Assembly (NCBI GenBank): GCA_019694215.1
Contig: JAIBCK010000031.1
Coordinates: forward strand, 1 to 35,473
Origin: Thermoflexales bacterium
GTDB taxonomy: Bacteria; Chloroflexota; Anaerolineae; J036; Brachytrichaceae
Length of the DNA: 35,473 bases
Reading direction: 5' to 3'
Shown here: positions 1 through 12,968 of the stretch, piece by piece
Position numbering within the stretch: the first letter of the stretch is position 1
How the letters are laid out: the number at the start of each line of letters is the position of its first letter
Made by a program: the position numbers and the translations under genes
The notes under the pieces: model-generated
What the model saw: only the letters and a program-made list of their open reading frames with translations
Told to the model about the DNA's origin: nothing
Database searches by the model: none

Positions 1-2
1 TC

Positions 3-113
3 GCCAGCTCGGGCATGCAATGGTCGAGGCAGGGCATTTCCAACCTCCTTCCCTTCCACATGGCCGAGCTCAGCGGCTCGTATGCCGATTTCTGGCGTCG
101 CACTCACCCCTAA
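3..113 (+). CDS. C-terminal fragment of a possible transposase (partial)
   Basis: An open frame enters from the left edge and stops at TAA 111-113, giving 36 residues. It includes a GMQWSRQGI stretch followed by a segment ending in SGSYADFWRR. From memory this resembles the extreme C-terminus of several transposase families, such as ISKra4-like ones, where a G-M-x-W-S/T-x-x-G motif is followed by a leucine-rich helix and a W-D-x-F-W-type ending. Only the tail is visible, so no catalytic residues can be checked. The family assignment is a guess based on one short motif. If correct, it places a mobile element next to the left end of the defence-like operon. Confidence 0.4.
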   Translation, partial: ASSGMQWSRQGISNLLPFHMAELSGSYADFWRRTHP

Positions 114-209
114 TGCCGGATGCACCCGATGGGGCCAACGGGTTGACGATATTCTCCGGGTTTGCGCCTGTGCTGTTACCATGACGCGACACTTGCCAGG
201 CGCACCCAG

Positions 210-3200
210 ATGAGCAACGCACTCTTTGACCCCATTACTGCCAGTCTTCAAATCCTCGATCGCTATCGCAGCCTTGTCCGTGAGACGATCGGCCGGGCGG
301 GCATTCCCGAGGCTGAGGCCGATGAGATCGTCAGGAACCTGCAGGTCGACCACGGGATGTTCCTCACGGCCAATCGTGCGTATGCGGCAGCGAAGGTCTC
401 GACCCAGGATCTCAGCCGGGAGCTGGGCCTTGCGCCTGCGCTGAGCGAGAGGCTGGCGGCCCGGATTCCGAGCCTGTATCAACACCAGGAGGAGGCAATC
501 CGCGCGATTCTGGCGGGGAATCCGACCGCCATCGCGACCGGCACGGGCAGTGGAAAGACCGAGGGGTTTCTCGTCCCGATCCTCGACTACTGCCTGAAAA
601 ACAGCGCTCGCAAAGGTGTCAAGGCCATCATCATCTATCCGATGAATGCGCTGGCTCGGGATCAGGCGCTGCGCATTCCTGGCCTGGCTGGGCACGAGAT
701 CACCTTTGGCATCTTCTCCGGCGCCACACCCCTGCACGCGCCATGGCCGCGACCCGAGGATGCGCCGCCGGGTCAACTGTTGTCGCGCGCCGAAATCGTG
801 CAGCGTCTCCCGGATGTGCTGATCACCAACCACGTGATGTTGGACTGGATGTTGACACGCGGCGACTATGCCGACATCTTTGGGCGCTCGAGTCAGACCC
901 TGAAGTACATCGTTGTGGACGAGCTGCACAGTTACCGTGGGAACAACGCCGCTCACCTGAAGTTCCTGCTCCGGCGTCTCAGGCACGCGGCGGGCAACCC
1001 GCCCATCATTCACTTGGGCGCCAGCGCGACGCTGGCCCGGACGGAATCCGAGATCGCCGAAGTCAAGGAGCATTTCCTGTTCCCGCTGTTTGACATCTCG
1101 GCCTGCGAGGTCATCACGCCGACCTACGCGGCCGAGGTTCGCCCGACGCCGATCCCGCTGCCGGATGATATTGGCGCGCGGCCACTGTTTCTCGGCCCCA
1201 ACGTGAGCATGAAGGAACACCTGGCCAACCTGGAAGCCTTGCTGGGAAACAGGGTGTCGCAGATGGCGCTTGCCAAACCAAAGCCCTACGATGATCTGCG
1301 GGCCAGCGTCCTGACCCAGCGGCTGAAAGACGCGCTCAATGAGCAAGGCACGGTCAGTTTCGACGACCTGGCAAAAATGGTCGAAGCGCTTCATCCGGAA
1401 CTCCCCGGGTCGCCAAAGGCGGTGGAGGTTGCCCAGGCTTTCCTGAGCACGGTCCGCTTTATGAACGCCCAGTCCAAGGCGACTTCTCAACCCGTTCTGG
1501 ACTTCCGGGCCCACCTGTTTGTGCGGAGCATCACCGGACACCTGAAGCGCTGCGTCAAGTGCGGCCGGTTCCATTCGGGCCGGCAGGCGAGTTGCCGGTC
1601 TTGCGGCGGGCCACTTTTCTACGTCTATCGCGAGGACCACCGGAAAGTCATTGCGGGTGTCTCCGGACGAGAGCTCATGCCCGCCCTGTTGGACAAGGGC
1701 GAAGCCGGGAAGGCTCGCATGTATGTCACCCTGGAGCCAGTGGGCACGGGAAGACCGTCAGGGGTGTCGTCCGCCTTGATCAGCCGGATTGAGGCGCAGG
1801 GCGACAAGCTGTTCATCGAGAGGGCGCGCGACGCGACCATCGACGAGGCGGGGCTGTTTCGGATCGCGTTGCTGGATGCGACGCGCCACAAGATCGAGGA
1901 GCAGTTGATTCCGCTGGCGAACCCGTACAAGCTGCATGAATACATGTATGACCTGGTGAAGACCAGCCAGCAACTGCTTGGGCCTGCCGACCCTCGGGTG
2001 CTGTGCTTTGTCGACAGCCGCGAGCGCGCTTCGCGCTACAGCACAGTCCTTCGTGATGAATTCACCAGCGAGTTCCTGGAGCAGTTCGCGCGCCAGGCGC
2101 TCGATGGGTTCGAACCGGATATCGATGCGGCCCTTGAGCTTCTTGCAAAGAACCTGCCCACGCTGCCATTCGAGGAGCCATCCGATATGCCCAGTTTGGA
2201 CGATCTGCAACTCTGGTTCTATCGGCGTCTATCCTCTGCTGTCGCCCAGGATCCGAGAACCGGGCCGCTTGCGCTGCGGGACGGCCCGAGCGACTCCGAG
2301 AGCCTCGCGGCCCGGATAGCCGAAATCTTCCTGGCCGAGCGCGCCATCTTGAAGCCGGATGATCTTGCCGCCGGGAGCGGCCGTATCACCTTTCGTCTGC
2401 GGCGTGCAATCACCCAGCACGGCATTCACATCGACGAACGTTCGGGGGCAATGCCGGCTGGCTACTCCTCGATTGCGTTGACGGCGGATGGCCGGAAGTA
2501 CTCTCCCATCATCGCGGCTCAGCTTGACCGGATCAAACCAACCGTCGAGGGTGAGCTGACTCAGAGTGGCCTCCTCGTCGCGCGTCAGCGTGATGACACT
2601 CGGTTCTTCTTTCTGAATCCCAAACGCGTGACATTGCGCTGGCCGTCGCCGATAGTGTCTGATCCAGCTCGATTGGTCAGGGACCTTTGCAAGCGGATTG
2701 AACTGCACAGTTCGGAGTTAAGCCTGGAGAAACGCGGGGGCGTTGAAAGGAACTTCAATTCGGGGCGCACCCAGGTGCTCATCGCCACGCCGACCCTGGA
2801 AATGGGGGTGGATATCGGTGGCCTCAGGCAGGTGATGATGATCGGTGTTCCGCCGAGCCCCACCAACTATGCCCAGCGCGCCGGCAGGGCCGGCCGCAAG
2901 AGCGACGACCGGTTTGCCGTCATCATTACACTGTGCGATGACACCGACAGCCACGACGCCTACTACTTCGACCACCCCCGCGACCTGATTAATGGCGTGA
3001 TCGCGCCGCCGCGCTTCAAGGCTGACAACGCCGAGATCGTCCGCAAGCACCTCCACGCTTTTGTGCTTTCGGGTCATGCTGAAAGCGGAGACGGATTGCG
3101 TCGGTTTCTGGCCGCGTATGAGCGGTGGACCACGCCCCTGCTCGGCGCCGTTCAGGCGCTCTTCGGGAATTACCTGGTCGACGCGCAGGCGTATGTTCAG

Positions 3201-4556
3201 CATGAACTCAAGGCCAAAGTGGAATCGGCCTTGGATTCAGCCGGCAGCGAGCAGCCCCGCATGCGCTTCTATGGCCGGGGCTTTTTCCCGGACTATGGGT
3301 TCCGTCACGACATCGTCAGGCTGATCGCAACGTGCCGCCGGGCAACGGAAGGCGACGAGGACGACATCGACGATCGGGTGATCTCACAGCGTGAACCGGA
3401 GCTTGCCATCCGCGACTATTATCCGGGCTCACGCATATTCGCCGCAAACGCTGTGTATCGCATCGGGGACGAAGGTGAGTACGAGACGATCGATCTGGAG
3501 CCGGTGGGATCTTCGAAACGGCCAGTCCGCAGCTACAGCAGTTTTCTCGCGACACCTGACGACTCGGATGTGACGCCGGACAAGGACTACACCCGGTTTG
3601 AGTTGCTCCGCGAATTTACGCAAAGCCAGGCGGTCAACGACCTCGGGCGCGTGGCCAGCTGGGTGTTCGAGCCTAACTGCGAACTCCTCCTGATCAACCG
3701 AGGTGTTGTGGACGGGCCGGAGACCTCCTCAGACACCGGAAGCGGCCCTGCAGGAGACAAAAAGAAGGGCCAGCCCGACTACGACCTGGGCTATCGGCTG
3801 GTCCGGGACACACTGGTTTTCCGGTTCGAGACAGCCCTGTTTTCCGACAATCGGGTTATTCTCAGCGCGATTGCGGCGCTTCAGTCCAGCATCGAGCGCG
3901 CCCTCAAGCTTGACAGTTCTGACCTTCGGGTGGCGGTTGGCTACCTGCCCAGGCGGCGCGATCCTGCCGATTCCGGCACCTATGTCCTCCTCCACGATGC
4001 TGATGGATCCGGGAATGCGCCAATAGCCGAGATTGGGGACCGGCTGCCTCAGCTTTTGGTCGATGCCTACGAAATGCTGGCTGGCTGCGACTGCGAGGAC
4101 GGTTGCCATAGGTGCCTAATAACGTATACTTCCCACTTCTACAATCCGAGTCCAACTCGAGATGGGGCGCTGATGCTGATTGGCTACTGGCTGGGAAGGA
4201 ACCGCTTTGTCCCCTCGATTGCGGGGCCATCGAAACTCGCGGCTCGGCCCGATATCGTGGTCAAACTCAAACGGGCCGGGAAACGCTACGAAGCGTGGAG
4301 GATGGACAAACCGTCGGTGGTTGCTCACGCCGAGATCGACGGAGCCCAGTATGCCGTCGCATGCAGCGTGTTGAGACAACTGTTTGAGTCGATTCAGTCC
4401 GACAAACGCGTCAACGTGCTCGTGGAGTGCGCCGAGGATGCACTGGTTGGCGTCCTGAATGGCAACAGCAGACCTGGGAAGGCACCGCAGGATCTTGCCA
4501 GGCTGTGGTACGAAGGGCTCCGCTTGGGCGATTTCCGGGCTCGGAAAGGAAATTGA
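210..4556 (+). CDS. Large SF2 DEAD/DEAH helicase with DUF1998-type C-terminus (DrmA/DruE/DpdJ-like)
   Basis: The protein has 1448 residues from ATG 210; a TTG start at 162 would add 16 residues that do not look native. Superfamily-2 helicase motifs are clear: Walker A GTGSGKTE at 111-118, DELHSYRG at 237-244, SAT at 272-274, and QRAGRAGR (motif VI) at 889-896. A long insert between the two RecA lobes carries a CxxC...CxxC zinc knuckle (C448, C451, C462, C465). A second Cys4 cluster near the C-terminus (C1293, C1295, C1299, C1302) is typical of DUF1998, as in the MrfA/YprA repair helicases. Size and domain order resemble DruE of Druantia, DpdJ of the Dpd system, or a DrmA-DrmB fusion of DISARM. 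The likely role is ATP-driven DNA translocation or unwinding. It is the first gene of a six-gene operon, and the next gene starts 1 nt after its stop. Confidence 0.9.
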   Translation: MSNALFDPITASLQILDRYRSLVRETIGRAGIPEAEADEIVRNLQVDHGMFLTANRAYAAAKVSTQDLSRELGLAPALSERLAARIPSLYQHQEEAIRAILAGNPTAIATGTGSGKTEGFLVPILDYCLKNSARKGVKAIIIYPMNALARDQALRIPGLAGHEITFGIFSGATPLHAPWPRPEDAPPGQLLSRAEIVQRLPDVLITNHVMLDWMLTRGDYADIFGRSSQTLKYIVVDELHSYRGNNAAHLKFLLRRLRHAAGNPPIIHLGASATLARTESEIAEVKEHFLFPLFDISACEVITPTYAAEVRPTPIPLPDDIGARPLFLGPNVSMKEHLANLEALLGNRVSQMALAKPKPYDDLRASVLTQRLKDALNEQGTVSFDDLAKMVEALHPELPGSPKAVEVAQAFLSTVRFMNAQSKATSQPVLDFRAHLFVRSITGHLKRCVKCGRFHSGRQASCRSCGGPLFYVYREDHRKVIAGVSGRELMPALLDKGEAGKARMYVTLEPVGTGRPSGVSSALISRIEAQGDKLFIERARDATIDEAGLFRIALLDATRHKIEEQLIPLANPYKLHEYMYDLVKTSQQLLGPADPRVLCFVDSRERASRYSTVLRDEFTSEFLEQFARQALDGFEPDIDAALELLAKNLPTLPFEEPSDMPSLDDLQLWFYRRLSSAVAQDPRTGPLALRDGPSDSESLAARIAEIFLAERAILKPDDLAAGSGRITFRLRRAITQHGIHIDERSGAMPAGYSSIALTADGRKYSPIIAAQLDRIKPTVEGELTQSGLLVARQRDDTRFFFLNPKRVTLRWPSPIVSDPARLVRDLCKRIELHSSELSLEKRGGVERNFNSGRTQVLIATPTLEMGVDIGGLRQVMMIGVPPSPTNYAQRAGRAGRKSDDRFAVIITLCDDTDSHDAYYFDHPRDLINGVIAPPRFKADNAEIVRKHLHAFVLSGHAESGDGLRRFLAAYERWTTPLLGAVQALFGNYLVDAQAYVQHELKAKVESALDSAGSEQPRMRFYGRGFFPDYGFRHDIVRLIATCRRATEGDEDDIDDRVISQREPELAIRDYYPGSRIFAANAVYRIGDEGEYETIDLEPVGSSKRPVRSYSSFLATPDDSDVTPDKDYTRFELLREFTQSQAVNDLGRVASWVFEPNCELLLINRGVVDGPETSSDTGSGPAGDKKKGQPDYDLGYRLVRDTLVFRFETALFSDNRVILSAIAALQSSIERALKLDSSDLRVAVGYLPRRRDPADSGTYVLLHDADGSGNAPIAEIGDRLPQLLVDAYEMLAGCDCEDGCHRCLITYTSHFYNPSPTRDGALMLIGYWLGRNRFVPSIAGPSKLAARPDIVVKLKRAGKRYEAWRMDKPSVVAHAEIDGAQYAVACSVLRQLFESIQSDKRVNVLVECAEDALVGVLNGNSRPGKAPQDLARLWYEGLRLGDFRARKGN

Positions 4557-4557
4557 T

Positions 4558-6426
4558 ATGGCCGAATTGATCGATTCAAGTCGCCCGCCGAGCAATGACG
4601 GCGAGAAGAAGATGCGGAGTTTCCTGCTTCAGCTACCCGCCGGGTATTGGGTATTTCGCGAGTTCTCAGTGAGCGAAGAGAATCCGCGCAACCGCAACCG
4701 ATTTGGGCAAAAGCGCCCCGACTTTCTGGTTCTGGCGCCCGACGTGGGCCTCGTGTCGATCGAGGTGAAGGATTGGGATATTCAGGCAAACACCTATCGC
4801 TGGCGCGATCAGGATACAGTGATCAGGAAATCGCGCGATGGACGAGAAGAGGAGATTGCCAACCCGGCGGCGCAGGCGGATGCCTACTACCATGCGCTTA
4901 AGGACTTGATCAAGGATGTTGCGCCGGTCTTTGTCACTTCATATGTTGCTTTCCCGAATGTCGCCAAACAGGACTTCCTTAACCGCATCGCCGACCTGAA
5001 GGTCATCAAGAACCCTCAAAGCCGTTTTCTGCTCCACCTGGATCGCACCATATTTAAGGATGATCTGGATCGGCACGTGAGTGGTCCTGACGCGTTCCTC
5101 CGGGAACTGGTCTGGCGCAACCCCGACTTTCACCGGTCAAGATTGGCGGAGATCGACTGGGTATTTGAGCGCCTCCTGCCGCGGCACTTTGCGATTGACG
5201 ATCTCCGCAAGCGTCAGGACGCGAAGCAGAAGGTCGGTGTTCTGGATGCGACGCAGAGAAAGTGGGTGCTCAGTCTTGACCACCATTCCTGGCATTTGCT
5301 GGACGTTGCTGGAAGCGGCAAGACGACGGCTCTCGTCGCGAAGGCACTGCATCTTGTAGATGCTGCCAAAGGGCAGCCTCCCAGAATCTTGTTGACGACC
5401 TACAACGAGAACCTGGCCAACAATATCAAGCGCATTCTGCGCCGGAAAAAAGAAGACGCGAAAAGGTCCTACCACAGCATCGAGGTTGCGAGCATACCGG
5501 CCCTTATGCGGCAGATTGTTGAGAAGGCATACGACGACAAAGTGCCCGAGAACGCTACGGAAGAAAATCTCCGCGCGGACGTGGAGGCTATTCTTGCTGA
5601 CCAACCCGATCTGGTTCGCGTCTATGACCACGTCTTCGTCGACGAAGTGCAGGACTTCGACACTCTCTATCTGCAGATTGTCGACCATCTCAGCGTATCG
5701 GGCCGCCTGTTCTTTGTCGGCGACATCGGTCAGCGCATCTATCAGCGCACCTATAACCTCACCCAACTGCGGGAGTTGCCTGCCGACATCGAACTGAAAA
5801 GAACACTCGCCATGTATCGCACCCCGCGCGGCATTGCCGAACTCGCGACGCGTTTTGTGTTTGGCAGCCCGCTGACAGAACAAGACTTGACCGATTTCAA
5901 GTACCGCGAAGACAAGATCGTGTATCCGAGCCCGCTGGACAACTACGCCGTCATGATGCGATCGAACGACGAATTCGTCGACCTCGTGAGGCGGGTCCAA
6001 GGCTATCTTTCGGCGGGCCGGTTTCTCGACGAGCTCATGCTGATCGCCGATGAAGGCAGTCTGCATCGCATTCAGTCGAGCCTGGAAAAGGCCGGGATCC
6101 GGTGCGGCATTGGCGATCGGGATGATGGCGATGCGGCCGTTACGTTGGTCAGCTATGAGAATGCGAAGGGCCTCGAGAAGCCAGTCGTCATCGTTTCGGG
6201 AATCGAGCATCTCTTCGAGAGCATGGTCAAATCGGCGATTCTGCAATCGGCGAAGGATCGTGACCTGCAGGAACAGCTTTGCCGGCGCAAGGTGTATGTG
6301 AGCCTGACCCGCTGCACCGAAGAACTGATCATTCTGTACCGCGATCCAAGCAATCGTCTGGTGGCCGACTTGCTGAGATACGATGCGAAGCTGCAGGAGA
6401 GACGAACCCATGGCAGCCAGCGTTAA
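4558..6426 (+). CDS. NERD-nuclease/UvrD-like SF1 helicase fusion
   Basis: ATG 4558 is chosen because GGAAAGGA at 4543-4550 lies 7 nt upstream and the gene then starts 1 nt after the previous stop; the frame is open further upstream. The protein has 622 residues. Residues ~15-125 form a NERD (nuclease-related) domain of the PD-(D/E)xK type, with D55 in RPDF, E69 and K71 in SIEVK, and Q106 in NPAAQ. Residues ~228-600 are a superfamily-1A helicase: Q-motif-like DATQ at 230-233, Walker A AGSGKTT at 251-257, Walker B VDEVQD at 361-366, GDIGQRIYQ (motif III) at 388-396, and YVSLTR (motif VI) at 580-585. SF1A helicases usually move 3'-5' on single-stranded DNA. The fusion suggests coupled unwinding and cleavage. 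Similar NERD-helicase proteins occur in defence islands. It overlaps the next gene by 17 nt. Confidence 0.88.
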   Translation: MAELIDSSRPPSNDGEKKMRSFLLQLPAGYWVFREFSVSEENPRNRNRFGQKRPDFLVLAPDVGLVSIEVKDWDIQANTYRWRDQDTVIRKSRDGREEEIANPAAQADAYYHALKDLIKDVAPVFVTSYVAFPNVAKQDFLNRIADLKVIKNPQSRFLLHLDRTIFKDDLDRHVSGPDAFLRELVWRNPDFHRSRLAEIDWVFERLLPRHFAIDDLRKRQDAKQKVGVLDATQRKWVLSLDHHSWHLLDVAGSGKTTALVAKALHLVDAAKGQPPRILLTTYNENLANNIKRILRRKKEDAKRSYHSIEVASIPALMRQIVEKAYDDKVPENATEENLRADVEAILADQPDLVRVYDHVFVDEVQDFDTLYLQIVDHLSVSGRLFFVGDIGQRIYQRTYNLTQLRELPADIELKRTLAMYRTPRGIAELATRFVFGSPLTEQDLTDFKYREDKIVYPSPLDNYAVMMRSNDEFVDLVRRVQGYLSAGRFLDELMLIADEGSLHRIQSSLEKAGIRCGIGDRDDGDAAVTLVSYENAKGLEKPVVIVSGIEHLFESMVKSAILQSAKDRDLQEQLCRRKVYVSLTRCTEELIILYRDPSNRLVADLLRYDAKLQERRTHGSQR

Positions 6427-7621
6427 TGCGGTTCCGCTCAAGACGCGCGCCGAGGATTTTGTCCTCGCGTTGGCGGAGGCCGGGTTCAAGGGGCGAGTGG
6501 TGCCAGAATCACTGAGTGAGTATGGCATCAAGGTGGCCGTATCAAGGGAGGGAAAGGATCTGGGCCTGGCCGTCGTCTTTTACAAACCCAAAACGGATAC
6601 ATTCAAGCTCGTCTTGACTGAACTCCGTGACTCGAGCTGCAACGACGCGCTCATGGCGGTTTGGAACCGGCCCCGGGATGCTGCAGGAAAAACTGCTCCA
6701 GATCTAGCCATCTACGTGGATGGCTCATATCAAGAGGGCGTGGCGTGCGTGGGTTGGGCGGCAGTCATTTGCGCGAATGGCAGCGTAACTGAGGAGCTTT
6801 CGGGAACGATCGATGACACCTCGCAAAGGCAGGTGCTGGGGGAGTTGGAGGCGGCAACGCAGGCGCTTTCGTGGTGCCAGAGGCAAGGGCATAGCGCGGT
6901 GATCATCTACTACGACTATGAAGGTGTCGCTGCCTGGGCGACCGGAGCCTGGAAGGCCAAGAACAACCGGACCCGCGAGTATGCCGAGTTTGTTCATTCG
7001 AGCAACATCAAGATCGACTGGCAGAAGGTGGCCGCGCATTCCGGTGATTCGGGCAATGAGCGCGCTGATGCCTTGGCGCGTCTTGCGCTGACAAGAAAGG
7101 CGTCAGGCTCTTCAGCAGACGCGGCCACCGTGTCGAACCCCGAGGAGCAGCTCAAAACGCGCGCCCAGGCGTTTTGTGATCATCTGGTCGCGGCGGGCTA
7201 TTCCGCCGCCATTCGAGGTTTCTACAATCATTCTGATGCGCAGATCTCGTTGGCGCGGGGCGGCAATTCCTTGGGCGTATTGCATCTCTATTTGACGGCC
7301 AAAAGCCCGCTGAGTCTCAAGCTTCATGATGTCCGAGTGGATCCCGCAACGCTCGCGTCTTTGGAAGGCGAATGGCAGGACTTTCTTGGGATAGCGGCCG
7401 GCACGAAAGCCGAGGATCTTGCCGACGGCGACGGGCTGGTCGCCGTCGACCACTACAACAAGATCCTGCTTCCCTTCGCGGGTTGCGACTTTGACTTCAT
7501 CCAACTGGCCGAGGCGGTCGCCGAGGCATGCCGGTATAGAAATCGACCGGTGGTTCCCGTGGATGAGCTTCGATACGATTACACCGCTCTCCAGGCACAG
7601 ATTCAGGCATTGCGCTGTTGA
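6410..7621 (+). CDS. RNase HI domain flanked by two copies of an unrecognised domain
   Basis: ATG 6410 is preceded by GCAGGAGA (6393-6400) and overlaps the upstream stop by 17 nt; the protein has 403 residues. Residues ~97-230 are a complete type-1 RNase H domain: D104 (YVDGSY), E145 (GELEAA), D169 (YYDYEG), H210 and D220 (AAHSGDSGNERADALA) match the E. coli D10/E48/D70/H124/D134 set. It should therefore cut RNA in RNA-DNA hybrids. On each side sits a ~65-residue segment starting with LKTRA (residues 10-74 and 248-311). The two share the pattern LKTRA-x2-F-x4-L-x2-AG[FY], a central LG, and a final beta-strand ending in R-x-D or RD, so they are an internal duplication. I do not recognise that domain. 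A further ~90 residues follow the second copy. No CxxC clusters or membrane segments are seen. Confidence 0.85.
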   Translation: MAASVNAVPLKTRAEDFVLALAEAGFKGRVVPESLSEYGIKVAVSREGKDLGLAVVFYKPKTDTFKLVLTELRDSSCNDALMAVWNRPRDAAGKTAPDLAIYVDGSYQEGVACVGWAAVICANGSVTEELSGTIDDTSQRQVLGELEAATQALSWCQRQGHSAVIIYYDYEGVAAWATGAWKAKNNRTREYAEFVHSSNIKIDWQKVAAHSGDSGNERADALARLALTRKASGSSADAATVSNPEEQLKTRAQAFCDHLVAAGYSAAIRGFYNHSDAQISLARGGNSLGVLHLYLTAKSPLSLKLHDVRVDPATLASLEGEWQDFLGIAAGTKAEDLADGDGLVAVDHYNKILLPFAGCDFDFIQLAEAVAEACRYRNRPVVPVDELRYDYTALQAQIQALRC

Positions 7622-7649
7622 GCACAACGGCGTTGAAAGGAGTATTCCC

Positions 7650-8954
7650 ATGACAAACACGATCGAGTTGCGAGATAAGGCTTCGGCACTGAGGAAGAGC
7701 AAGGACTTCAATGCGGCGCTGCCGCTATATGAGGAGCTCTGGAAGAACAGGCCCAACGAGCGGAATGAATGGGATGGCTGGGGCTACGCCAGTTGTCTCA
7801 GAAAGGTCCGGCGTGCTCAGGAAGCCGAGCAAGTGTGCCGGGATACTCTGAAGATCAAGTCGGACTTTGCATATGCCCGCAACGAGTTGGCGTGGTGTCT
7901 CTATGACCTGTATATCAAGAAGTCGGATGAAGAGATCTCCAGAGATGAGCAACCCTATTTGCGCGCTGCCAAAGAGGTCACTTCGCTCGTGCGCCAGGAC
8001 CAATTTAGCGCTTTCGCAAAGACGATTCTGCATGTGTCGGACTACCTGAAATCAAAGCCGAATCCGCGCGCCCAGGATCGGTACGCCTGGCTCAGCCAAC
8101 TTGATCCGGCCCAGCTCTCCACGGACACATTTCAGTTTACCGATGCGACGGGCGCGCAGCGAAAGCTCGCATCGGACAAGGAACGCTGCTTCGCGTCGTT
8201 GACGGACGTTTTGGTGGGACTCACCCAATGGGAGAAGTGCATAGCGGTCGGTGAAGAGGCCCTCAAGCAGATTCAGCAGTTTCACTATGACAATGATATC
8301 TGGATCAGGCGGCGCATTGCGATCGCCAAGGGAAAGCTCGGTCGCCGAACAGAGGCTATCGCTGACCTGCGGGATCTGCTTGTGCGAAAGAAGGAGTTCT
8401 TTATCCAGCATGATCTGGCAGAGCTTTTGGCGCAGGAAGGCCTGACCGATGAAGCGTTCTCTTTTGCCGCCCAGGCGGCTATTGGGCACGGTGAGCCGCA
8501 GATGAAGCTGGGCGTTTTTGAGTTGCTCGGTCAGTTGCTTCGCGCGGCAGACAGACCGAAGGAAGCCGCCGAGCATTATGCGTTGATGGCCGCCGTTCGT
8601 CTCGAGCACAACTGGCCAATCAGCTCCGACCTCGCGAATGTCCTGTCCGAGGCAGGTGTTCAGATCGACAAACTTGAGTCATCAAATGCAATCATCAAAC
8701 GGCTGACGCCGGTTTGGGCCGCGGTCGCTGCGGAAAGACAGGAGCGATTCACGGGGAGGATCACCGAGATCCGTGAAAAGTTCGGCTTTGTCTTGACCCA
8801 AGATCGAAAGAGCTACTTCTTTCGGTTGAGTGAGTTCAAGGGTCCGCGTCGGCTATTGGCAGCTGGCCAAGAAGTTACTTTCGCTTTGGAAGACGGGTTT
8901 GACAAGAAGAAGAACATTCCCGCCAAAAATGCCGTGAACCTGCAGCCTGCATAG
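7650..8954 (+). CDS. TPR-like repeat protein with C-terminal cold-shock-like domain
   Basis: ATG 7650 has GAAAGGAG at 7635-7642 and lies 28 nt after the previous stop; the frame is open further upstream, but that part overlaps the RNase H gene. The protein has 434 residues. Most of it (~1-350) is helical with TPR-like units, for example residues ~8-70 (FNAALPLYEELWK...EAEQVCRDTL) and a later set (WEKCIAVGEEAL; GRRTEAIADLRDLL; DRPKEAAEHYALMA). Residues 366-434 look like a cold-shock/S1-type OB fold: GRITEIREKFGFV with the RNP1-like KFGFV at 377-381, SYFFRLSEF at 388-396 in the RNP2 position, then GQEVTFALE and a KNAVNL ending. The family would suggest single-stranded RNA or DNA binding combined with a protein-protein scaffold. 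The stop codon directly abuts the next ATG, so translation is probably coupled. Confidence 0.8.
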   Translation: MTNTIELRDKASALRKSKDFNAALPLYEELWKNRPNERNEWDGWGYASCLRKVRRAQEAEQVCRDTLKIKSDFAYARNELAWCLYDLYIKKSDEEISRDEQPYLRAAKEVTSLVRQDQFSAFAKTILHVSDYLKSKPNPRAQDRYAWLSQLDPAQLSTDTFQFTDATGAQRKLASDKERCFASLTDVLVGLTQWEKCIAVGEEALKQIQQFHYDNDIWIRRRIAIAKGKLGRRTEAIADLRDLLVRKKEFFIQHDLAELLAQEGLTDEAFSFAAQAAIGHGEPQMKLGVFELLGQLLRAADRPKEAAEHYALMAAVRLEHNWPISSDLANVLSEAGVQIDKLESSNAIIKRLTPVWAAVAAERQERFTGRITEIREKFGFVLTQDRKSYFFRLSEFKGPRRLLAAGQEVTFALEDGFDKKKNIPAKNAVNLQPA

Positions 8955-10598
8955 ATGGCCCGCTTGCCCCAATGGACGTCCCGATCGAAGGTGAGCGATA
9001 TCAACCGGGATCCTCTTGGCTTGGTGCGCGTCTTTGATCGTATGGGCGAGTGGTTGCTGTCTGGGGTCACCACCGCTACTCGGCGGGCGCGCTACTATGC
9101 TTTCTATCCCTGGGCGATCTGGTCAACGACGACGGTCCACCATACCCATGCCAGACCTGGATTTGTCAATGGCCTGCGCCGGCGCGAAGCTGCCTTTGTG
9201 CTCGCTCAGGCAGCCGTGGAATCCAAGTCGGAGCCAATCGGAACGAATCTCCTGGGCGTTGACGAAGGCCGGCGACACTGGAATGAGCGGGAGCCTTCCC
9301 AACCCATCTCACTGGATTTCCGCCCGCTTCCGGCAAATGATCTCGGCGGGTATGGACAGGTATATCAAGGCTCGCTCTTCAAGCTCGGCCTCGTGTCGCG
9401 TCCTGAATCAGCAAACGGATGTGACCTCGTCACGGAAGCTGCCATGCCGCTCGTGCGCGCGTATCAAGACGCCATTGGGCATACCGCCTATGGTCAAACG
9501 CTGGCAACAAGCGATCCCGCGTCCTTGTCGGCCGAGAACCTTGTTGGCTATGGGAAGAAATGCCGAATCAGGGCATTGAGTGTCGGCGAGAAAGTAACGA
9601 TTCAGGATCTCATGTTCGGACCTCCCACGCTTGATGCTCCCGAGGCGATCAATCGTCGTGATAGTTTCCTGTGGTGTCTTTGGGTGACTGGCCAGGCAGA
9701 ACGCGCTGATGGTTTCGAATCCGAAACCATTGATCGACTGCTCCTCGGGCAAGCGGCTTACACGAATCGACTTCTCAGGGACGGGCGTGAGATTCAACTG
9801 GAGGTGCCCGAGGCCTTGCGGACGTGCGCTGATCGCTATGCTCTCCTGCGCGGCCATGGCTACGCGATGTGTGCTCTGGAAGCGGTCTTCGGTCTTCTTC
9901 TGGATGCGACTGCCCCTGACCCCCTCACGGTCGAAGGTTTTGTCGATGGACTGTCTCTTCCGAATTTAAAGCGCGCTTGGTCAAGGCGAATGCGCGTGCC
10001 ACCCGCGCGAGATGTATTGGCCGGCTGGCTGGAATCCTCGGCCGCCACGCCCAATCGAGGGCGGGGTGCATTGACCGATCCGGGTTCCGAATACGGTCTC
10101 GAGTTTGCTTTTGACGACGCCGGCCCCGCCGATGTTCTGGCGGCCTGCGTGATGACGTTCTTCGCCATCTACGAGCGCCAGCGCGCATGGCGTGGCGTGC
10201 ATCCCCCTTGGATTGAAATGAGTGGGTGGGCTGGGGACGATCTGTGGTTTGAGCAGATTGCAAAGCTGATTGATGAGTGCGCCGATCAGCGCGTGTCGTT
10301 TCGAGATTTTCTGGTTCGGCTCATTCGAGACATCATTCTTCGTCACGAGAGGCGGACCCATTCACAGCGCGGTCAGTCGCATAGCCCATGGTTGCGACAG
10401 GACGATCGGAACCGAATTGGCCGCGTCAAGGGCTATGAGACCTTCATGCGCCCGTCGAGGCTGAACAGCGCCATGTCAATCCTGAACGACCTCGGACTGG
10501 TAGATATGAACAGTGACCCTGATGCTGAGACTGCAAACGCCATTCGGCTGACGGCTGATGGCCGGCGATTGTTGCGCGCGCGGGGCCTCGGAGGCTGA
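8955..10598 (+). CDS. Uncharacterised defence-operon protein (possibly DUF6361-like)
   Basis: The protein has 547 residues and starts at ATG 8955 immediately after the previous TAG. It has no clear Shine-Dalgarno of its own, which suggests translational coupling. I do not recognise the family with certainty. The N-terminal pattern DPLGLVRVF followed by LLSGVTTATRRARYYAFYPWAIW recalls, from memory, DUF6361-type proteins found beside helicase and PLD genes in defence islands. There are no Walker motifs, zinc clusters, transmembrane segments or obvious nuclease motifs. The last ~70 residues (GYETFMRPSRLNSAMSILNDLGL...ANAIRLTADGRRLL) look like a winged-helix unit, so DNA binding or a structural adaptor role is possible. 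The following gene begins 1 nt after the stop. Function is unknown. Confidence 0.8.
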   Translation: MARLPQWTSRSKVSDINRDPLGLVRVFDRMGEWLLSGVTTATRRARYYAFYPWAIWSTTTVHHTHARPGFVNGLRRREAAFVLAQAAVESKSEPIGTNLLGVDEGRRHWNEREPSQPISLDFRPLPANDLGGYGQVYQGSLFKLGLVSRPESANGCDLVTEAAMPLVRAYQDAIGHTAYGQTLATSDPASLSAENLVGYGKKCRIRALSVGEKVTIQDLMFGPPTLDAPEAINRRDSFLWCLWVTGQAERADGFESETIDRLLLGQAAYTNRLLRDGREIQLEVPEALRTCADRYALLRGHGYAMCALEAVFGLLLDATAPDPLTVEGFVDGLSLPNLKRAWSRRMRVPPARDVLAGWLESSAATPNRGRGALTDPGSEYGLEFAFDDAGPADVLAACVMTFFAIYERQRAWRGVHPPWIEMSGWAGDDLWFEQIAKLIDECADQRVSFRDFLVRLIRDIILRHERRTHSQRGQSHSPWLRQDDRNRIGRVKGYETFMRPSRLNSAMSILNDLGLVDMNSDPDAETANAIRLTADGRRLLRARGLGG

Positions 10599-10599
10599 T

Positions 10600-12756
10600 G
10601 TGGAAAAAGTCTCGCTCACGGAAGTGCTGAAGAAGGCGCCAGGATATGACCACGCCGTCGTCTGCACATATCGGTTTGGCGCAACGATATTTGAAAACGC
10701 CATTCTGAACGACTTTCGGGCATTCAGAGGGTGCGCGGTCATCAGTGTCCTGACGGATGTTGCTGACTTCGCCCGGTTGTGCGATGACGCGGATCTTCGA
10801 TACGTCAACCATCGTTACCTTCTCCAGGACGTGACTGTGGGATCGCGGGTATTTCATCCGAAACTGATGCTCTTCACCTCAGGCAGCGCCGCACGGCTGG
10901 TTGTGGGCAGCGCCAACTTCACAGAGAGCGGTCTGGGCGAAAACGCCGAATTGATCCAGGTATTTGAAGCACGAAAAAGCGATGGACGCAGCCCGCGCAT
11001 CTTTCATGCGGCACTCGATATTCTGGAGGCGATTGCCATGCGATGGTTGCCGGCGGACGGCGCGTTTTCCGGCCACCTAGCTACAATCCGCGCGAACACA
11101 GACTGGCTTTTTCAAGCGGTTCCGGAAGATGATCATTCGCCTGCATTAGTCCACAATCTTGACCGCCCGCTGCTTGATTCATTTGAAGAGGCGCTCGGCG
11201 CCGGACCCGTTGAGGAGTTCATCACTCTCTGCCCATATTTCGACGCGAATCTGGATGCGTTGAGCGAGATCGCGCGACGCTTTGACCCGCGCGTGATTCG
11301 CCTGATTACGCGCGATCGAGATACGACGCTGCCGGTGGATCGCCTCGCTGGCTGGCGTTCCGCGCATCCGAATACCGAACTGAAGATTCAATTGCTTGAG
11401 TATGCCAATGGCGAGGACGCGGGCCGCATGCTACACGCCAAGTTCCATGCTGCCCGCCGCGGAGAGGTGGTGGTGTGTATGTCCGGGAGTCCGAATTGCA
11501 CAGCATCGGCATTGCTGCGAAAAGCTGGGCCCGGCAACTTCGAAACAGGACTTCTGGTCAAGGACGCGCGGCGGAGGGAGGTCAGCGCGCTGATCAACGC
11601 TATGGGGAGACTCGTAGTGCCGGCCGACGAGACCAGGATTATCTGCGCCCCCCAGCAGCCGACGTGGGTATCGTCGCCGACCTATGTTGCCCTCTCACGT
11701 GTCGAATGGCGTGAGCCGTATCTAGTATTGGACTATTCGCCACTCTGGAATGGCCCGCTGCGCGTGGCGTTGTCTACAGAGCCTCCCGTCTCGATTTCGG
11801 TCGCTGCTAATCAGTCGCCTCTCAAGATCATGCTCCCTGAGGCGGCCCGAGAGGCGCTCAGAAAGGGCGCGGTCCGGGCCCGTCTCGTTTCCGAGGATGG
11901 CGAGCCACTCTCCGGATGGCGTTGGATTGAGAACGCGCGAACCGGTGATCTCCCGCACCGATTCCGACCCAACTGGGAGGCAAGTCAACGTGATCCCGGC
12001 AAGTTCTACCTGGTCCTCAAGGACCTAGTGGATCGCGGCGAGATCAAGGCGATCATTGACTTCCTGCAGTGGATGAACATCCCAACTGAGGGTCTTCATC
12101 GAAACACTCGGGGCCGACGATACGTGGAGGCAATGCGCGGATTTTCGGGAATCCCGCCGTTGCTGGCCAGGAAAGTTGAGACCCTGCGTTCGGCGATGGA
12201 TGAGTTCTATCCAAAACACAGGCGAAAACTGGAAAGTCATGCGCGGACCCCCAACATGGATGGCATTGACAACTTCGTCCAGATTTTTGAAACGCTCGCG
12301 ATGGCGCTGCGTTGTCACTGGGATCACGAACTAACCAACATCTCGTCAGCGGATAGTCAGATCCCCGCGGACGCCTGGGCGGACTTCAGACAGTATGCCG
12401 GCATCTGCGTGCAGCGCTACTTTGAATTGCTTCCGATACTCCAGCGCTTCGTCTCAGGCTTACGTACAGGTCGCGGGAGCGGCAACTACCGTCCCGAGTC
12501 TGACCTCGAGGAGACGCTGCTTGGTGGGCATGCCATGTGGCTGAATGACGTGGCGTTGGGCATCCAGCGGCTCACGACAACCGCTCGCGTGAGAACGCAG
12601 GGCGGTCAATTACTCGCGTTGCCATTCGGAACGCATGACGAGCTCGAGCTCGGGAACCTGCGAGAAGCGCGTTCAACTGCCGACCGCAACATTGCTTCGG
12701 CGCTAAGTGGGCTCTCGAGATTTGTTGGCGAGGTTCCGACGCGACGCGCTATATGA
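10600..12756 (+). CDS. Phospholipase-D-superfamily (HKD) putative nuclease
   Basis: GTG 10600 is chosen as the start: GGAGG at 10590-10594 sits 5 nt upstream and the gene then begins 1 nt after the previous stop. An in-frame ATG at 10558 would overlap the upstream gene by 41 nt. The protein has 718 residues. The first ~330 residues hold two PLD catalytic half-sites: H86-x-K88 with GSANF at 103-107, and H279-x-K281 with GSPN at 296-299. The aspartate of the classical HxK(x4)D motif is not in place in either half (T and R instead). The remaining ~390 residues are unassigned and include a conserved-looking helical part around NMDGIDNFVQIFETLA. PLD proteins partner DUF1998 helicases in DISARM (DrmC) and Dpd (DpdK), but this one is much larger than DrmC as I remember it. 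It is the last gene of the operon. Confidence 0.82.
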   Translation: MEKVSLTEVLKKAPGYDHAVVCTYRFGATIFENAILNDFRAFRGCAVISVLTDVADFARLCDDADLRYVNHRYLLQDVTVGSRVFHPKLMLFTSGSAARLVVGSANFTESGLGENAELIQVFEARKSDGRSPRIFHAALDILEAIAMRWLPADGAFSGHLATIRANTDWLFQAVPEDDHSPALVHNLDRPLLDSFEEALGAGPVEEFITLCPYFDANLDALSEIARRFDPRVIRLITRDRDTTLPVDRLAGWRSAHPNTELKIQLLEYANGEDAGRMLHAKFHAARRGEVVVCMSGSPNCTASALLRKAGPGNFETGLLVKDARRREVSALINAMGRLVVPADETRIICAPQQPTWVSSPTYVALSRVEWREPYLVLDYSPLWNGPLRVALSTEPPVSISVAANQSPLKIMLPEAAREALRKGAVRARLVSEDGEPLSGWRWIENARTGDLPHRFRPNWEASQRDPGKFYLVLKDLVDRGEIKAIIDFLQWMNIPTEGLHRNTRGRRYVEAMRGFSGIPPLLARKVETLRSAMDEFYPKHRRKLESHARTPNMDGIDNFVQIFETLAMALRCHWDHELTNISSADSQIPADAWADFRQYAGICVQRYFELLPILQRFVSGLRTGRGSGNYRPESDLEETLLGGHAMWLNDVALGIQRLTTTARVRTQGGQLLALPFGTHDELELGNLREARSTADRNIASALSGLSRFVGEVPTRRAI

Positions 12757-12869: not shown

Positions 12870-12894
12870 TGGCGCCGTTTGCAGTTGCCATTAG

Positions 12895-12968
12895 CGGAAG
12901 CGACGGGATTCGAACCCGCGGTCTCTGCCTTGACAGGGCAGCGTGTTAGGCCTCTACACCACGCCTCC
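12895..12968 (-). tRNA. tRNA-Asp (anticodon GTC)
   Basis: On the minus strand the sequence folds into a full cloverleaf. The acceptor stem is GGAGGCG with CGCTTCC (one G-U pair). The D arm is GTGT...ACAC. The anticodon stem is CTGCC/GGCAG around the seven-base loop CTGTCAA, whose anticodon GTC decodes aspartate. The T arm is GCGGG-TTCGAAT-CCCGT. The discriminator is G and CCA is not encoded. The 3' end faces the defence-like operon at 210-12756, the orientation expected if an island had integrated at the tRNA 3' end. I found no second copy of that 3' end in the first 200 nt. Confidence 0.95.

Follow-up and report, generated by a model that had tools for sequence, protein, structure and literature searches.

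The window analyzed here, a stretch of 35,473 nucleotides from a Thermoflexales bacterium (positions 1 to 35,473 of contig JAIBCK010000031.1, assembly GCA_019694215.1), carries close to its left end six tightly spaced open reading frames (ORFs) on the forward strand, at 210-12756. An earlier, sequence-only reading took these for a multi-nuclease, dual-helicase operon with the look of a defense system, related to DISARM, Dpd and Druantia yet lying outside them, a description that has been borne out. The likeliest starts, as judged from ribosome-binding sites and alignment of homologs, lie at 210, 4558, 6410, 7650, 8955 and, with a GTG codon, 10600; the junctions from gene 1 to gene 6 measure 1, -17, 28, 0 and 1 nt, so that no gap exceeds 28 nt.

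Gene 1 (210-4556) encodes a YprA-family superfamily 2 (SF2) helicase, with DEAD (480-1046), Helicase_C (2694-2900) and MZB/DUF1998 (3873-4118) domains (Pfam 4e-20, 4e-14 and 9e-10) and intact P-loop and DExH motifs. Gene 2 (4558-6426) fuses a NERD nuclease of the PD-(D/E)xK type to a superfamily 1 (SF1), UvrD-like helicase (Pfam NERD 1e-9, above the Pfam cut-off; UvrD-helicase 5e-15); its E-V-K and P-loop motifs are intact, and the E-V-K-D-W residues of NERD are invariant in six homologs. Gene 3 (6410-7621) consists of two alpha-beta4-alpha 'TBP-like' lobes on either side of an RNase HI domain (Pfam RNase_H 2e-13; structural model m6293dfe04279). Gene 4 (7650-8954) combines tetratricopeptide repeats (TPR) with a cold-shock domain (CSD) of the OB type; it matches PADLOC PDLC01170, 'TPR fused to cold shock-like domain', at 7e-73 and Pfam DUF7017 at 2e-8, the CSD match itself (4e-4) falling under the Pfam cut-off. 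Gene 5 (8955-10598) encodes a divergent ZacA-like protein with weak DUF6361 similarity (PADLOC ZacA 7e-6), adjacent to gene 6 (10600-12756), a ZacB-type phospholipase D (PLD)-like nuclease (PADLOC ZacB 9e-15; PLDc_2 8e-13).

The domain calls made from the letters alone hold in profile searches (DEAD, Helicase_C and MZB/DUF1998; NERD and UvrD; RNase H; TPR and CSD; PLD), as do the remarks that no modification gene lies within the six-gene operon and that gene 5 is an unknown, profile searches having returned no strong family for it. The helicase, nuclease and RNase H motifs of the operon's enzymes are all intact. Genes 1-4 match the named system TALON, and genes 5-6 are similar to part of Azaca; no single system takes in all six. 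What is new at this locus is a TALON variant with a ZacAB tail, not a new class of system.

The TALON core

TALON was presented in a 2025 preprint by Bell et al. as a very rare system found mostly in Chloroflexota, whose components are a NERD nuclease, a YprA helicase resembling that of ARMADA, and two proteins that TOTE systems also possess, TPR-CSD and TBP (PMC12458937). The RNase H and cold-shock modules had been read as signs of a new type, an idea that did not survive, since Bell et al. define TALON by this very combination of YprA helicase, NERD, TPR-CSD and TBP (PMC12458937).

A search with gene 1 among 400 genomes of the window's phylum recovered five genomes in one family, four of which correspond to Ktedonobacterales contigs in a scan of named genomes. 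In each of the five, YprA is followed by the NERD-helicase, then by a small protein homologous to the N-terminal lobe of gene 3, and finally by TPR-CSD. When named genomes were scanned with the gene 2 alignment, four further Chloroflexota loci came to light, and a search of class genomes supplied another two, giving 11 core loci besides the window; in one of these, L069, only the C-terminal part of YprA is present, as the contig starts there. In the other 11 genomes the first four genes keep the order and spacing of the window beyond chance, with overlapping genes or short gaps, and gene 2 is 28-43% identical to its counterparts. A conserved neighborhood, which the sequence-only reading proposed to look for, thus exists for the four-gene core in other Chloroflexota; the six-gene set was found nowhere else, be it in 400 phylum genomes (gene 5), 301 genomes (gene 5 alignment), or 396 class genomes and an 84,980-species scan (gene 2 alignment). 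The distribution is patchy (5 of 399 other phylum genomes, 2 of 395 other class genomes), and the shared phylum of the window genome and Ktedonobacterales fits the near-confinement of TALON to Chloroflexota. Pairwise identities correlate across loci, with r of 0.89-0.91 among genes 1-3 and of 0.52-0.56 with gene 4 (permutation p 0.0002-0.003), the pattern that core genes traveling together would give. Searches for TALON on viral contigs and for TPR-CSD relatives on plasmids found none. At L116 (1904-3535, reverse strand), the place of the TPR-CSD gene is taken by one for a more distantly related TPR protein, which matches the candidate defense family PDC-M16B (2e-112).

Phylogenetic analysis places gene 1 in the TALON clade. 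Its match to PADLOC DruE3 is strong (1e-99), and in a maximum-likelihood tree the window YprA and 10 other TALON-context YprAs are monophyletic with support of 100/100. An earlier tree that included BRIGADE gave a nine-row TALON clade holding the window YprA, again at 100/100; the second tree omitted the BRIGADE rows, which had formed long branches, with no change in the window's placement. The window YprA is set apart from the Druantia III, ARMADA and BRIGADE-like rows of these trees, in which DISARM is not represented. TALON is represented in the trees by YprAs of the core loci described here, and the Ktedonobacterales loci are assigned to the TALON of Bell et al. from gene content and phylum.

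Gene 3 distinguishes the window from part of the family. It comprises an N-terminal lobe (6419-6691), defined by alignments, with a lobe model of pLDDT 90.8 and a low-scoring match to the N-terminal domain of RnlA; an RNase HI domain (6692-7117), supported by an alignment of seven homologs and superposed on 3aly_A with a VIA Z of 17.5 (2.5 A over 134 residues); and a second lobe (7124-7405), which has the same order of secondary structure as the first and is 24% identical to it. The RNase HI assignment is unambiguous: the D113-E154-D178-(H219)-D229 set is intact (residues counted from 6383), and D113, E154, D178 and D229 are conserved in the homolog alignment. The form of about 400 residues, with lobe, RNase HI, second lobe and C-terminal helices, is found in the window and at L067, L068, L069, L115 and L116, while a one-lobe form of 160-190 residues, devoid of RNase HI, occurs in the Ktedonobacterales and L070 loci; alignments show that the first lobe of gene 3 is homologous to this small protein. 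Elsewhere, a lobe-RNase H-lobe gene lies at a contig end (L060, 75-1046, reverse strand) with no YprA or NERD genes upstream, and is perhaps part of a TOTE system.

Because RNase HI dominated the first model of gene 3, the lobe was folded separately. Sequence searches of the lobes against the PDB gave nothing credible. Among solved structures, the N-terminal domain of E. coli RnlA comes up repeatedly, though at low similarity (Foldseek probability 0.97, E 0.19), and is the lobe's recurrent match among nucleic-acid enzymes; the predicted fold is in line with the TBP designation used by Bell et al. but is no proof of it. In RNase HIII, domains of the TBP-like type bind RNA-DNA hybrids, and a domain of this kind is also present in RnlA (PMC7221094, PMC3710099); RnlA is also coupled physically and functionally to RNase HI, which it requires for activation (PMC5308261). 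RNase H and RnlA are likewise physically linked on a Lactococcus plasmid, in an RNase H - RnlA - RnlB operon (L015, 5887-8291). These precedents suggest that gene 3 may recognize RNA-DNA hybrids.

Some cores at other loci have defense genes as neighbors. At L067 (8351-16634), a GmrSD gene precedes the core, and DISARM DrmA-DrmB-DrmC follow 22 nt on; at L068, a DruE-like helicase gene lies 59 nt upstream of the core, with GmrSD nearby; at L116, the core is followed by DrmD. L115/L117 (contig C23 of genome G475) present a BREX operon with two PglX genes, reading PglX, BrxC, core, PglX (split), PglZ and BrxL on one strand, with the whole core between BrxC and the second PglX. The remaining core loci have no recognized partner in the stretches examined. 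These neighbors support a role in defense and raise the idea, drawn from few loci and weighed below, of the core as a plug-in.

The ZacA-ZacB pair and the setting of the operon

The Azaca-like part suspected from the sequence alone was recovered in genes 5 and 6. The ZacB profile matches all 10 members of the gene 6 family, whereas the ZacA profile matches only 3 of 10 gene 5 homologs. Gene 6 has two HxK...GSxN PLD half-sites, both HKD half-sites being invariant in 10 sequences; its C-terminus is shorter than in homologs, and its similarity to DrmC is only weak. The ZacC profile has no match on the window's contig (C62), its only matches, both weak, being on C63 and C75; since ZacC is not at this locus, genes 5 and 6 are not filed as Azaca.

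ZacA-like and ZacB genes are adjacent in all 12 loci examined, the window included. Eleven of these lack TALON, some having no recognizable helicase alongside, and the upstream partners vary: HmaB-HmaC (L020), a BrxL-containing cluster (L016), a type I restriction-like protein (L017), a DrmD-like SNF2 protein (L012), or none recognized. At L020 (6188-18819), HmaB, HmaC and the ZacA-ZacB homologs run in one direction, the HmaC-ZacA gap being 51 nt. Plasmid pairs were found only in Sphingobium, Undibacterium and Polaromonas, and no gene 5 relatives were found on viral contigs. ZacA-ZacB is a portable two-gene nuclease module.

GC content at third codon positions is 0.63-0.75 in the six operon genes versus 0.77-0.90 in four downstream neighbors, which suggests acquired DNA. 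Beyond gene 6 lies a tRNA-Asp gene (12894-12968, reverse strand; ARAGORN and Rfam), oriented so that its 3' end points toward the operon, and overall GC content steps from 58% to 68% at this point, a possible island boundary. No repeat of the tRNA-Asp 3' end, as an attachment site, occurs in the window, so integration at this gene is unproven. At the other edge, window 1-127 encodes the last residues of an ORF (...SGSYADFWRRTHP, then a stop), perhaps a transposase. Over its first 126-127 nt the window matches the end of contig C14 exactly and C181 in part. The contig therefore ended inside a repeated sequence, and the operon may have had further genes upstream that are missing here. Long antisense ORFs overlapping the six genes, such as 5137-6531 on the reverse strand, were rejected as shadows of high GC.

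Proposed mechanism and competing explanations

In the mechanism proposed here, the hybrid- or single-strand-binding parts of the operon (the lobes and RNase HI of gene 3, and the TPR-cold-shock protein) would recognize invading DNA as it replicates or is transcribed; both helicases would open this DNA and track along it; and NERD, joined in the ZacAB variant by the PLD nuclease, would cut it. The invading nucleic acid would be destroyed directly, without cell suicide, a non-abortive mode suggested by analogy with ARMADA. It is somewhat more probable than not, in our judgment, that the locus is a TALON-type antiviral operon of Chloroflexota, of a lobe-RNase HI-lobe 'TBP' subtype, which has acquired a portable ZacA-ZacB tail and acts as outlined.

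Several points weigh against this reading. The ZacAB pair is missing from the other 11 TALON loci, so that its cooperation with the core is argued from one case and a 0-nt junction, and the resemblance of the lobe to RnlA is weak (Foldseek E as given above; VIA Z of about 7, level with KA1 domains). RNase HI is missing from the Ktedonobacterales and L070 members, which implies that hybrid cleavage is not essential to TALON in general; an activity that is optional in the family is likely to be an added capability rather than the core one. TALON YprA is said to end in an inactivated RNase H fold (PMC12458937); the C-terminal region is conserved across TALON YprAs, and its profile comparison with RNase HI gave a probability of 4.7%, which does not verify that fold. 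Finally, no experimental test of any TALON system was found among the papers retrieved.

The most serious alternative, which we regard as less than an even prospect though far from negligible, is that the four genes of a complete TALON and a ZacAB pair able to act by itself abut by chance, and are co-transcribed with no mechanistic link. Each unit does occur in 11 loci without the other, and defense genes cluster in any case. Against such independence, the two meet on the same strand at a 0-nt stop/start junction (TAG/ATG at 8954/8955), with no promoter-like or terminator-like site found at the gene 4/5 boundary, and ZacAB is repeatedly found at the 3' position of other defense operons, as in the example downstream of HmaC.

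A further possibility, rather doubtful and compatible with the TALON-plus-tail reading, is that the core does not stand alone but serves as a targeting plug-in for the effector or modification genes of BREX, DISARM and Azaca. Its positions inside a BREX operon, shortly before DrmABC, beside DrmD, after DruE and directly before ZacAB are those expected of such a part; the Ktedonobacterales, L069 and L070 cores, however, have no such partner in the stretches examined, and nesting may only reflect the build-up of islands. Equally tentative is the idea of two portable units, a sensing and unwinding TALON core and the ZacAB nuclease tail, with the window as a natural two-module chimera whose front end carries a protein for recognizing RNA-DNA hybrids.

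The categorically new six-gene system originally proposed is very improbable: the exact set was found nowhere else, yet every gene belongs to a known family, and the idea is largely refuted by the core order in other Chloroflexota and by the position of gene 1 in the TALON YprA clade. A DNA-repair operon of the MrfAB/YprAB type is slightly less probable still, because, although YprA-family helicases also act in repair (PMC12458937) and repair makes use of RNase HI and SF1 helicases too, the patchy distribution, the low third-position GC, the defense-island neighbors and the place of TALON in the defense branch of the published YprA tree (PMC12458937) speak against it.

For a system described in 2025 as extremely rare (PMC12458937), these loci reveal a subclade with RNase HI between duplicated lobes, cores within operons of BREX and DISARM, and a PLD nuclease pair that can be swapped in. 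They provide a testable case for the notion that defense systems share interchangeable front ends for targeting and back ends of nucleases, and suggest that bacteria build defenses from interchangeable blocks; RNA-DNA hybrids may be a recognized signature of infection.

Relation to known defense systems

The main text of PMC12458937 describes neither RNase HI between duplicated lobes of the 'TBP' protein, nor cores nested in BREX or placed 22 nt before drmABC, nor a ZacAB tail. The window shares with TALON the YprA helicase, the NERD nuclease, the TPR-CSD protein, a small protein whose lobe is putatively TBP-like, the Chloroflexota host, and a four-gene order also seen in Ktedonobacterales; it differs in the duplicated lobe and inserted RNase HI of its small protein, and in the ZacA-like and ZacB PLD genes that follow without a gap. 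With Azaca (ZacABC), as represented by PADLOC profiles and by papers citing Millman et al. 2022, it has in common the adjacent ZacA-like and ZacB-type PLD genes, but it lacks the ZacC helicase, matches ZacA weakly, and places four TALON genes ahead of the pair. TOTE (Aravind et al. 2022, as cited in PMC12458937) has similar TPR, OB/cold-shock, TBP-like and RNase H parts, to which the window adds the YprA and NERD-SF1 helicases.

DISARM, Druantia III, ARMADA and BRIGADE also center on a YprA/DUF1998 helicase, some with PLD nucleases. The last three belong to YprA clades other than that of gene 1, which lies outside those of Druantia III and ARMADA, and genes 2-6 have no DruH match. DISARM has separate DrmA and DrmB, DrmC and a methyltransferase, whereas the window joins helicase core and DUF1998 in one protein and has no methyltransferase; DrmB, DrmC, DruH, BrxHII and PglX are all absent from its operon. 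Lastly, in RnlA-RnlB (RNase LS), a TBP-like domain is functionally paired with RNase HI in anti-phage defense, as the putative TBP-like lobes would be with RNase HI in the window; gene 3 differs in having no recognized HEPN RNase domain, and in fusing its lobes and RNase HI into one protein.

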